DNA from: Clostridiales bacterium
GTDB taxonomy: Bacteria > Bacillota > Clostridia > Oscillospirales > JAAYOS01
DNA length: 34,002 nt
Assembly: GCA_012520195.1 (NCBI GenBank)
Contig: JAAYOS010000046.1
Coordinates: forward strand, 1-34,002
Direction: 5' to 3'
The position numbers and the translations under genes are program-made. The notes beneath the pieces are model-generated. The model worked only from the letters and a program-made list of their open reading frames with translations, was not told the DNA's origin and made no database searches. Below are positions 15,057 to 22,551 of the stretch, in pieces (within the stretch, counting starts at the first letter, position 1; every line of letters begins with the position of its first letter).

Positions 15057-17039
15057 TTAACTGACAAGCTTCATATACTCAAGTACGGGTAATCCTGGAT
15101 CTATGAGGGTGTACCACACAATAAGAAGTGTCAATACAACGATTAGAAGTGTTGCATCTGCACCGATGCCTGCCACTTTGGTTCCAAATATAGTGAAAGC
15201 CCTTGATTTACTATAGTTAAACAGGCGGGAGTGAGCGGATCTTGATACCTTCGAAACAAGTTTTGACGCCGAACTGTAGAACCTCGCACCTCTTTTGGAG
15301 ATAGCGGAAACCAGGCGCTGCACAGAACTTGATATGCATTTAGTTGATATCCAGACAGGGAGCCTCAACGAAAAGAGACCGCTCTTAAGCCCCAACCAGC
15401 AGAAAAACACCCCAAGGGCTAAGGTTATAACCATGCCGCTTATATCGCTAAAGTTCCAATATGTAAGGGCACCCAAAGACTCTATAGCATTATTGATCCC
15501 CAATCCTTGAGTGGCTACAGCTCCCGATACATCGGGAAATAGCTTAGGACTAATACCAATAACCAGCATGGTAACCACAAGTATACCCATTCCAATATGC
15601 ATGCCCGTAGATTTGCCGTGACGGACTTCTTTCTCACCGTGCTGGACTTGATTCGCAGATGAAGCTTTCTCTGTTCTAATATCTGTTGATTTACAAGTTG
15701 CTTTCTCTGAACCTTTGAGAAAAATGAGGTAATATAGCTTTGCAAAATAAGTCGCAGTACCTACTCCTGTCACTAGAAATAGGCGTTCAGCCCAAATCGC
15801 CCATCCGGCTCCTGTTTCTGCGGCAAGGGTTACACCATGGTGGAGGACAGTCTTACTGACATATCCATTCAATCCTGGAGCTCCGATAATCCCCAACACA
15901 GCAACAAACATCAAGGCAGCAGTTATGGGAAAGCGGCGCAATAGTCCACCCATTTTATAGAGATCAAGTTCATTTGTTTTGATATATATAATCCCGATAC
16001 CCATAAAAAGAGTTGCTTTAAATAGTGCGTGGTTTACGACATGATAGATAGCACCAAGCAAACCCAGACCGCCATCCTGTCCTAAGTACAAACTGGTACC
16101 GAGACCCAAAATAATATAGCCCATCTGACTTACGCTGCTATATGCCAACAGCCGTTTTGCATGGCTTTGAAACAGTGCTAATACTGTTCCCACTAGCATT
16201 GTACACACACCTAGGACAGCAAGTGCCGGCCCAAGCCGCGAGGTACCAATTTCCAGTGCATTACCCCAGCCTACAAATTGAACCGATCGTATTAGTCCGT
16301 AGATTCCAACCTTTATTATGAGTCCCGAAAGCAGTGCACTGCCGGGGGTAGGTGCTGCAGAGTGGGCACGCGGCAGCCAGGAATGTAGAGGAAACATTCC
16401 TGCTTTTGTACCAAATCCGGCTATAAGTAGACCTATAGCCCATGCGAACATTCGACTGTCAGTAACTGTAACACTTTCTCCGATTACAAGAGTTGAATCG
16501 CTAGCCGAGTACAGTAGCACAGCGCCCAAAACGACAAGCAGTCCTCCTATTATACTATAAAACAAGTAATAATAACCAGCACTTATTGCATCATTGTCCC
16601 ACTTGTGTATCACCCAAAAGTAAGATGTAACTGTCATAATCTCAAAGAAAAGTAATAGTGTAAACAAATCACCCGATGTGAACACTCCCAAGATAGAGGA
16701 TAGTGTTAGCAGCGCACATAGCTTAAAGCGCTTTTCGCCGCCTTCGTGCTTCATATACTTAGGTGTATACATCGAGACCGCTAACCACACAAAGCAGGTT
16801 AGTATCACGAATATTGCTGTCAGCGGATCTGCCTGAAAAGTAGGCGCAAATGGGCCTGGTAGTGCCATCTCAAATGTAGCAGGCGTTCCAGTAAATACGT
16901 CTTTAAACCCAACGATTCCAACAACAAGGACTATTGCACTGACTAGGAGTGATATATTTGCCTTGCTATCCCTCTTTATTAACGTAACTATTGCCCCGAG
17001 TAGGGGGACCGCTATAAGTGTCAAAAATAACATTAACAA
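15057..17039 (-). CDS. Mrp/complex I-type antiporter subunit (MrpD/NuoM-N-like), 660 aa with C-terminal extension
   Basis: GDLFTLLLFFEIMTVTSYFWVIHKWD (TM5 Glu), GFGTKAGMFPLHSWLPRAHSAAPTPGSALLSGLIIKVGIYGLIR (TM7 and TM8 Lys). Confidence 0.9.
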   Translation of the reverse strand: MLMLFLTLIAVPLLGAIVTLIKRDSKANISLLVSAIVLVVGIVGFKDVFTGTPATFEMALPGPFAPTFQADPLTAIFVILTCFVWLAVSMYTPKYMKHEGGEKRFKLCALLTLSSILGVFTSGDLFTLLLFFEIMTVTSYFWVIHKWDNDAISAGYYYLFYSIIGGLLVVLGAVLLYSASDSTLVIGESVTVTDSRMFAWAIGLLIAGFGTKAGMFPLHSWLPRAHSAAPTPGSALLSGLIIKVGIYGLIRSVQFVGWGNALEIGTSRLGPALAVLGVCTMLVGTVLALFQSHAKRLLAYSSVSQMGYIILGLGTSLYLGQDGGLGLLGAIYHVVNHALFKATLFMGIGIIYIKTNELDLYKMGGLLRRFPITAALMFVAVLGIIGAPGLNGYVSKTVLHHGVTLAAETGAGWAIWAERLFLVTGVGTATYFAKLYYLIFLKGSEKATCKSTDIRTEKASSANQVQHGEKEVRHGKSTGMHIGMGILVVTMLVIGISPKLFPDVSGAVATQGLGINNAIESLGALTYWNFSDISGMVITLALGVFFCWLGLKSGLFSLRLPVWISTKCISSSVQRLVSAISKRGARFYSSASKLVSKVSRSAHSRLFNYSKSRAFTIFGTKVAGIGADATLLIVVLTLLIVWYTLIDPGLPVLEYMKLVS

Positions 17040-17070
17040 GCGTCCTTTCTCTCTCTTCGATCTCTACACC

Positions 17071-18519
17071 TTAGAAAAACCAATCAACAACAGCTTCGAC
17101 CCCGGGCCACACCGACCCAGGCCAAAGACCAATAAATATGGCAACAACCGCCAAAATCGCAGTTGGTGTAAGCATAAGAAATAGTCTTTTGCCTCTCTCT
17201 TTGTTCAGTACACCCTCTGTCCTCTTGCCCCTGAAGGCGTCAACAACAGTGGGTATAAAGCAAAAAGCATTTACTATTCCGCTACAAATCAATACTACGG
17301 CCACCTGCCATCTTCCACCCTCAACGCCACCCTGCATCAGGTAATATTTACTCCAGAAGGTGTTAAGGGGCAGCATCCCTATCATACCTAGACTTGCAAC
17401 TCCAAAGATCGTCATAGTCTTTGGCAGTGACCACCCAACACCTATCATCTTGCTTATCTCTGTCTCACCGGTCTGTTCAGAAATGATTCCGGCACTAAAG
17501 AAAAGTGCTACTTTTAGTATAGAGTAACTTATCATATGTAACATTGCACCAGCAAGTCCCAGTGGCTGTAGTGTAAAAGCACCTAGCAGAATGTAAGACA
17601 GCTGACTGATAGTGTGGTATGCCAAACGGCGCTTCAAGATGTCCTGCCGTGTCGCTATAATAACACCTACTAAAATCGTAAATGCTGCAATCCATGGCAA
17701 TACTCTTCCAAAGCTCAGTTGCGATATAAGCTCGTGACCAAATACAGAGTATATCACCCTCAGAACTCCATATACACCGGAGTACACCACAGCTACCGCA
17801 TGTAACAGTGCACTTACCGGCGTTGGCGCAACCATAGCAGATGGCAGCCATCTGTGCAGAGGCATTATTGCAGCTTTTACACCAAAACCTACGATAAACA
17901 GCACCAGTAGCCAGTTAAGTCTTGGATCAACGCTACCCGCGAGTATTGGCTTGTCCGAAAAACTGAGATTTCCTGACATGCTATATGTAAACACAACTGC
18001 AACCAGAATTGCTCCAGCCCCCGACAGACTATACAGAAAGTATTTCTTGCCTGCCTTAACCGCTTCTGGGGTACGCTCATGAATAACTAGAGGGTAAGTG
18101 GTAAAAGTAAGAAGCTCGTAGAACAAATACAGCACAATCAAGTTCCCTGAAAAGGCAACACCAAGTGTCACACTAAAAGACAATAGAAAAAAGGTGAAAT
18201 ATGTCCTGTGTCTTTTCTTTTCTGACATATATCCGAATGAGTATACTGCAGCAAACATCCAGAGCGACGAAGCAATGATTCCAAAGAGCGCTCCTAGTGG
18301 GTCAGGTCCAAGACTGAATGTAAATCCCGCGATGTGACCCACTAACATAATGCTCTGCCCTGAAAAAGCTGATATGCCAACAACCCAGCAAGATAGAGTA
18401 CCTAATGCTGTAAATAATATCACTATTAAGTTGCGCAACCGCTCACGACTTTCAGGTATTGCCGCAACAATCAATCCGCCAACTACTCCGCTTAATAGAG
18501 CGAGTATAAGAAATAGCAA
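17071..18519 (-). CDS. Mrp/complex I-type antiporter subunit, 482 aa, NuoL/MrpA-N-like around TM8
   Basis: GNLIVLYLFYELLTFTTYPLVIH, GFGVKAAIMPLHRWLPSAMVAPTPVSALLHAVAVVYSGVYGVLR. Confidence 0.9.
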   Translation of the reverse strand: MLFLILALLSGVVGGLIVAAIPESRERLRNLIVILFTALGTLSCWVVGISAFSGQSIMLVGHIAGFTFSLGPDPLGALFGIIASSLWMFAAVYSFGYMSEKKRHRTYFTFFLLSFSVTLGVAFSGNLIVLYLFYELLTFTTYPLVIHERTPEAVKAGKKYFLYSLSGAGAILVAVVFTYSMSGNLSFSDKPILAGSVDPRLNWLLVLFIVGFGVKAAIMPLHRWLPSAMVAPTPVSALLHAVAVVYSGVYGVLRVIYSVFGHELISQLSFGRVLPWIAAFTILVGVIIATRQDILKRRLAYHTISQLSYILLGAFTLQPLGLAGAMLHMISYSILKVALFFSAGIISEQTGETEISKMIGVGWSLPKTMTIFGVASLGMIGMLPLNTFWSKYYLMQGGVEGGRWQVAVVLICSGIVNAFCFIPTVVDAFRGKRTEGVLNKERGKRLFLMLTPTAILAVVAIFIGLWPGSVWPGVEAVVDWFF

Positions 18520-21748: not shown

Positions 21749-22052
21749 TTAGTTTATCTCCCTCTCCATTATCGATAATGCTGTCAAGCTCGCCAACTTT
21801 GAAGTTCCAAACCTTTGGAACTAGTGCCTTCAAAATCCAAAGACTGCTAACAAATCCACATAACATAAATACAACTGCTACATCAATAAACCCGAATTCT
21901 TTACTTATAAAAGCAAGCAGCAGTATTACCACGCTTGCCTTCCCTGTTATTGCATTAATCGAGACGAGGCGGTCTATGACCGTCGGCCCTATTATCGCTC
22001 GCACTAACACTAATAGAATCAGGATTATCATCCCTGCGGCTATCCACAGCAT
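21741..22052 (-). CDS. mrpF: Mrp antiporter subunit F (MrpF/MbhB)
   Basis: 103 aa; VLVRAIIGPTVIDRLVSINAITGKASVVILLLAF, FIDVAVVFMLCGFVSSL. Confidence 0.9.
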   Translation of the reverse strand: MLWIAAGMIILILLVLVRAIIGPTVIDRLVSINAITGKASVVILLLAFISKEFGFIDVAVVFMLCGFVSSLWILKALVPKVWNFKVGELDSIIDNGEGDKLND

Positions 22053-22551
22053 ATCCTTCCCCCTCCTGCATCAGGTTTTCCAGCTTAATTATCTCGTCTA
22101 TCACCGGCCACGAGATCAGATCATTTGCGGCCTCTTCGGTTAACGCATGGACTACAAAGCGCCCCGTTTCAGGATCTGTATCCACTGTAATCGTGCCTGG
22201 TGGGAGTGTAATCATATTGGCCAGAAGTACCCTCCCCCATCCGGTCTTGATTGCAGGCGTGATATCAACAATGACAGGACGTGCCGGTGGTTTTGAAAAC
22301 AAAACAGTTTTGGCCACATCAATGTTGCCCTTAATGATATTTACTATCAGCAATACTAACAGCCGTCCCGCTTGCCTTAACGCTCTAGCTGAAGGGATCC
22401 TGGGAATTCGATGGCCTGTATCCACCCAAAACCAAACGGTTATTGATGCAAAAACCGCACCAAAAATGACGTGCTGAATGTCCACGTTATCAGATATTGC
22501 TAACCAAAAAGCAAAAAGTATTATAAAAAGTATAATAGAGCGCCTGCGCAT
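21955..22551 (-). CDS. mrpE: Mrp antiporter subunit E (MrpE/MbhA)
   Basis: 198 aa; FWLAISDNVDIQHVIFGAVFASITVWF, LLANMITLPPGTITVD, FVVHALTEEAANDLISWPV. Confidence 0.9.
   Translation of the reverse strand: MRRRSIILFIILFAFWLAISDNVDIQHVIFGAVFASITVWFWVDTGHRIPRIPSARALRQAGRLLVLLIVNIIKGNIDVAKTVLFSKPPARPVIVDITPAIKTGWGRVLLANMITLPPGTITVDTDPETGRFVVHALTEEAANDLISWPVIDEIIKLENLMQEGEGYAVDSRRDDNPDSISVSASDNRADGHRPPRLD

Follow-up and report, generated by a model that had tools for sequence, protein, structure and literature searches.

Group 3 Mrp antiporters are defined by gene content. They contain the E, F, G, B, C, and D genes, lack a single mrpA, have an irregular gene order, and carry at least one mrpD-like gene (PMC8415708, PMC5703873). 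The order in Aphanothece is mrpCD1D2EFGAB (PMC5703873), and deletion of PF1147–1153 in Pyrococcus furiosus supports Na+/H+ exchange (PMC8415708). Stand-alone group 3 systems with extra pumps have also been reported (PMC7784846, PMC5703873, PMC8415708). We analyzed a 34,002-nt stretch of DNA from a Clostridiales bacterium (assembly GCA_012520195.1, contig JAAYOS010000046.1, forward strand 1–34,002), hereafter the window, that holds a ten-gene Mrp-like cluster preceded by a leader RNA. The cluster very likely encodes a cation/H+ antiporter, a group 3 Mrp (CPA3) that stands alone, has three pump subunits, is controlled by cyclic di-AMP (c-di-AMP), acts in osmotic stress, and probably exports Na+. 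Its gene content fits the group 3 definition, and the published precedents make its architecture one of a known kind. The original prediction named an already characterized Mrp subtype as a finding that would count against it, and this is partly the case. What appears new is the c-di-AMP control and a MrpF/MrpG substitution; the antiporter type itself is known.

The cluster consists of ten open reading frames (ORFs) on the minus strand, running from 22551 down to 15057, and neighboring frames overlap or lie no more than ~40 bp apart. Pfam matches to MNHE, MrpF_PhaF, PhaG_MnhG, MbhD, MbhE, MnhB, Oxidored_q2, and three copies of Proton_antipo_M are all above the curated cut-offs. NCBIfam and Pfam agree on MrpE, MrpF, MrpG, MbhD (DUF4040), MbhE, MnhB, MrpC/NuoK, and three antiporter-like subunits, D1, D2, and D3. 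These assignments confirm the ten-gene Mbh-like module of the original prediction, including the MbhA–H order of the first eight genes, the three pump-like subunits, and the absence of an adjoining redox gene in the window. More than 20 further loci in Firmicutes have exactly this ten-gene order, and this recurrence shows that it is no chance arrangement. The EamA gene downstream of the cluster was confirmed (PF00892), and it is not retained beside the cluster in relatives.

Rfam finds a single RNA in the window, a c-di-AMP aptamer that is followed by a strong terminator and then by mrpE; a Na+ riboswitch was not found in the window by the same search. The covariance match spans the full aptamer and exceeds the gathering score, and the terminator supplies an expression platform between the aptamer and the first gene. 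The promoter-like site upstream is weak alone, as about 1.1 such sites are expected by chance in the region. The same RNA was found by Rfam in 8/8 relatives tried. A local model built from these nine sequences, the window and the eight Rfam-positive relatives, matches the window and 18 other loci, always on the cluster strand, and has no other match in 1.29 Mb. Upstream sequence is available for 25 same-order loci; the riboswitch is present in 18 of them and absent from the five most divergent and from L034 and L037. No other RNA leader was found near the cluster in the switch-less loci L034, L036, L037, L039, and L041. A SulP/STAS anion transporter gene lies between the riboswitch and mrpE in 13 of the 18 relatives; it is nearest to the DauA and BicA models, yet scores below both cut-offs. 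The window's genome encodes a diadenylate cyclase. It has one further c-di-AMP riboswitch (G000:C196:12793–12948), located before the genes of an oligopeptide-type ATP-binding cassette (ABC) transporter, an uptake system. Characterized c-di-AMP riboswitches are OFF switches that release their genes when K+ is limiting or the cell is under osmotic stress (PMC6488665, PMC9337991). The leader is most likely a c-di-AMP riboswitch with a terminator, and its predicted OFF polarity follows these characterized members. Such control of this Mrp cluster type appears to be previously undescribed; our literature search, which did not extend to the genes listed by Nelson 2013 and Block 2010, turned up no earlier account of an Mrp system under a c-di-AMP riboswitch, and the novelty of the link is accordingly unproven.

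We infer the ion, its direction, the subunit order, and the switch polarity as follows. D1 would sit next to MrpC, with D2 farther out and D3 at the distal end, where its C-terminal lateral helix would brace the row. The membrane potential generated by Rnf and ATPase would draw H+ inward through the pump subunits, and, by analogy with homologues, this influx would drive Na+, or another cation, out of the cell by way of the E-F-G-MbhD-MbhE-B-C module. When c-di-AMP is low, as on K+ limitation or osmotic stress, transcription would most likely pass the terminator, and the exchanger would be made when cells need to replace toxic cations with K+ and osmolytes. This leader may also control, in many relatives, the DauA/BicA-type SulP anion transporter, which could use the Na+ gradient. 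Several points weigh against this scheme. The riboswitch is missing from the five same-order loci that diverge most. The sequence leaves polarity ambiguous, since the 5′ arm of the terminator abuts the 3′ end of the aptamer, and folding indicates that in relatives this arm can base-pair with the sequence flanking the aptamer on its 5′ side. The MrpF Asp of the proposed Na+ path is replaced by Asn, and the ion or the coupling may differ. Finally, the genome (2.45 Mb, 96% complete, 4% contaminated) is a draft in 209 contigs.

The pairing of the terminator arm with the aptamer 5′ flank could give ON logic, in which case the cluster would encode a K+(Na+)/H+ antiporter that is induced at high c-di-AMP and sheds excess K+. 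Mrp homologues are able to carry K+ (PMC7419157), and CpaA, a K+ exporter elsewhere, is activated by c-di-AMP (PMC10243994). However, the characterized c-di-AMP riboswitches in the literature searched are OFF switches (PMC6488665, PMC9337991), and the second switch of this genome precedes uptake genes. We consider a K+ exporter improbable.

The cluster order and motifs resemble those of the membrane-bound hydrogenase (MBH) and membrane-bound sulfane reductase (MBS), and the D2 clade also serves complex I of Sinorhizobium meliloti pSymA and probably that of a euryarchaeote. The cluster could therefore be read as part of a redox-driven pump (Mbh/Mbs/Ehr-like), supplying the membrane arm while genes elsewhere encode the peripheral arm, and the original prediction offered docking with an electron-transfer unit of this sort as the alternative to a stand-alone three-channel antiporter. 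Profile searches favor the stand-alone reading. NuoB/MbhJ (PF01058), NuoH/MbhM (PF00146), and NuoD/MbhL (PF00346) were not found in the 96%-complete genome, whereas the same searches were positive in 11 of 14 control genomes. The peripheral arm of MBH or MBS (MbhJ, MbhL, MbhM, and so on) and the NuoB, NuoD, and NuoH homologues of respiratory complex I are thus missing from the genome. Of the 31 genomes in which close relatives of the cluster were found, 24 also lack PF01058. In Firmicutes relatives of the same order no redox gene was seen next to the cluster, and the euryarchaeal contig L090 is the only retrieved locus in which a D2 homologue has complex I genes as neighbors. Weak NuoF/HyfA-like matches occur in L060, on the strand opposite the cluster. 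The genome encodes Rnf, and its only PF00361 genes are the three within the cluster. Judged from gene content, a redox partner elsewhere is unlikely because of these absences, and the antiporter would stand alone. The docking alternative is largely refuted, and we regard a redox-pump arm as highly improbable.

The contig is native to its genome. Positions 3.5–14.0 kb of the window are collinear with the same-genus genome G008 at ~60–80% protein identity, and collinearity stops just before the EamA gene and the Mrp cluster (window 14003–15057). G008 has no copy of the cluster, which was either gained in the window's lineage or lost from G008. A radical-SAM-like gene occupies the corresponding place in G008, as judged by eye without a profile. 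Mis-binned contamination, which the 4% contamination of the genome, the lack of the cluster in G008, and the absence of the closest D2 relatives (72%) from the genomes sampled in the window's own order might suggest, is rejected as most improbable given the flanking synteny; gain by transfer, or loss in G008, explains the rest.

The phylogeny of the antiporter-like subunits was computed from 112 rows. D1 is placed with MrpD, NuoN, MbhH, and MbsH. The 482-residue D2 forms its own clade together with haloarchaeal D2 and the NuoK-adjacent subunit of the second complex I encoded on S. meliloti pSymA. D2-type subunits stand beside NuoK in the complex I operons of L146 (S. meliloti pSymA nuo2) and L090 (a euryarchaeote), which points to a pump class common to stand-alone Mrp and complex I. 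The 660-residue D3 forms a clade separate from MrpA/NuoL, and a grouping of D3 with MrpA was disfavored by the approximately unbiased (AU) test (p = 0.011), which was run after the tree was seen. The closest solved match to D3 by sequence is MbhH, and its top structural matches are Mrp antiporter subunits. The predicted structure (predicted local distance difference test score, pLDDT, 84) has transmembrane helix (TM) 15 at residues 530–553, an amphipathic helix at 566–606, and a low-confidence TM16 at 625–645, so that the predicted C terminus has the NuoL/MrpA/HyfB topology. The proposal that MrpA is split here, with its NuoL-like part moved downstream, therefore fits the topology of D3 but not its phylogeny, and a simple split is rejected. 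Group 1 and group 2 Mrp, in which MrpA is a single protein that joins a NuoL-like part to DUF4040 and MbhE parts, are distinct, since MbhD and MbhE are separate genes here and D3 does not group with MrpA. The proton-path residues Glu133, Lys212, Lys243, Lys341, and Lys396 are invariant in 37 D3 homologues. The D1 and D2 sequences hold the corresponding Glu and Lys motifs, apart from the TM8 Lys, which D2 lacks.

A D2-based scan of genome contigs gave 80 loci. The order E-F-G-MbhD-MbhE-B-C-D1-D2-D3 is exact in L015–L041 and L089 wherever the contig covers it. Most of the Firmicutes loci L042–L063 contain the same genes in the order B-C-D1-E-F-G-MbhD-MbhE-D2-D3. Four antiporter-like subunits, D1-D2-D2′-D3, are found in actinobacterial loci and in the clusters read from six genomes that belong to the same order as the window. 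Some Firmicutes loci have still more such genes in close proximity, five in L045 and L053 (three of them tandem D3-like), six in L052, and seven in L062, with no redox genes in view. The linker between TM15 and TM16 was compared in the D3 homologues of L015–L094 and L151–L158, using clusters uncut by the contig (21 with three pumps and 23 with at least four). It measures 72–79 residues with three pumps and 92–365 residues with four or more. The separation is complete, but the tree needs just two changes, so linker length and pump number are not independent evidence; a lengthening of the lateral helix with the row of pumps is suggestive. L049, from a Syntrophomonadaceae metagenome-assembled genome, has a pyrrolysine insertion element (mttB-type, RF02510; 4829–4928) ~5 kb before D2.

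The Asp35 of MrpF on the Na+ path has been described as invariantly conserved (PMC7419157). The canonical Mrp, MBH, and MBS sequences examined have Asp here, but nearly all multi-pump clusters have Asn, as this one does, or Ser in one subgroup. These clusters also have an MrpG Asp at a position held in canonical proteins by Thr, Ala, Gly, or Gln. An Asp-to-Asn change in Bacillus subtilis MrpF was reported to be mild (PMC7419157). Because of this, and because group 3 is defined by gene content, we take the Asn as the mark of a variant and not as grounds for exclusion.

These observations may be joined in a broader proposal, which we put forward tentatively and hold to be doubtful. The clusters would form a c-di-AMP-gated multi-pump Mrp subtype in which the number of pumps sets an H+/cation gear ratio, the distal linker lengthens with pump number (72–79 versus at least 92 residues), a charge on the cation path has shifted from MrpF to MrpG, and low-energy anaerobes export Na+ under osmotic stress. 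The locus ties the c-di-AMP osmotic-stress signal directly to a relative of the complex I membrane arm and suggests a physiological role for a class of gene clusters whose function has so far been read largely from sequence. With three, four, or more pumps and no redox arm, the family lets the relation between subunit number and ion stoichiometry be tested, which is a complex I question, and in the MrpF/MrpG charge swap nature has provided a test of the proposed Na+ path.

Table 1. Features of the c-di-AMP-controlled Mrp cluster, in window coordinates
Feature	Position	Strand	Evidence and remarks
Sigma-70-type promoter-like site, TTGACT-16-TATTAT, TG before −10	22843..22870	-	10/12 matches
c-di-AMP riboswitch aptamer (RF00379, ydaO/yuaA leader)	22693..22819	-	89.6 bits versus gathering score 38; full length, 1–134/134
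Intrinsic terminator of riboswitch, long hairpin and T7	22661..22701	-	comparable hairpin and T-run after aptamer in most relatives
mrpE/mbhA, 198 residues	21955..22551	-	PF01899, 102 bits
mrpF/mbhB, 103 residues	21741..22052	-	PF04066; Asn in place of conserved Asp35 of proposed Na+ path
mrpG/mbhC, 103 residues	21437..21748	-	PF03334; extra Asp following conserved His
mbhD (DUF4040), 92 residues	21154..21432	-	PF13244; PDLAVTEAA motif, MBH/MBS-type
mbhE, 98 residues	20868..21164	-	PF20501; DYRAYDTMFE motif retained
mrpB/mbhF, 146 residues	20431..20871	-	PF04039
mrpC/mbhG/NuoK-like, 134 residues	20058..20462	-	PF00420; NIMES motif Glu, like MbsG
D1 antiporter-like subunit, 500 residues	18559..20061	-	PF00361, 191 bits; MrpD/MbhH/MbsH/NuoN group
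D2 antiporter-like subunit, 482 residues	17071..18519	-	PF00361, 180 bits; separate clade
D3 antiporter-like subunit, 660 residues	15057..17039	-	PF00361, 192 bits; 14-TM core, TM15, lateral helix 566–606, TM16

The window cluster shares features with five known systems. The group 1 Mrp of Bacillus and Anoxybacillus (MrpABCDEFG) has the same small subunits and a MrpD with which D1 groups, but it has a fused MrpA, two pump subunits, a His-His motif in MrpC, and Asp35 in MrpF. The MBH and MBS of P. furiosus have the A–H order and the MbhD, MbhE, and MrpC motifs; they differ in their hydrogenase or sulfane-reductase arm, their one or two pump subunits, and their retained MrpF Asp. The P. furiosus Mrp encoded by PF1147–1153 is also a stand-alone group 3 system without MrpA and with MbhD/E-type subunits, but it has one antiporter-like subunit compared to three here (PMC8415708). 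The group 3 Mrp of Ca. Nitrospira alkalitolerans, likened here by its published description, is stand-alone, with two extra NuoM/NuoL-like genes after mrpD and bicA nearby, whereas its host is an aerobic nitrite oxidizer and the parts of the account available to us mention no riboswitch (PMC7784846). The plasmid cluster of the haloalkaliphilic archaeon Halostagnicola larsenii XH-48 (L147) has fused MbhD and MbhE, an archaeal host, and a D3 in another clade, but like the window cluster it is a stand-alone E-F-G-DUF4040-B-C-D1-D2-D3 array with three antiporter-like subunits, the MrpF Asn, and the extra MrpG Asp.

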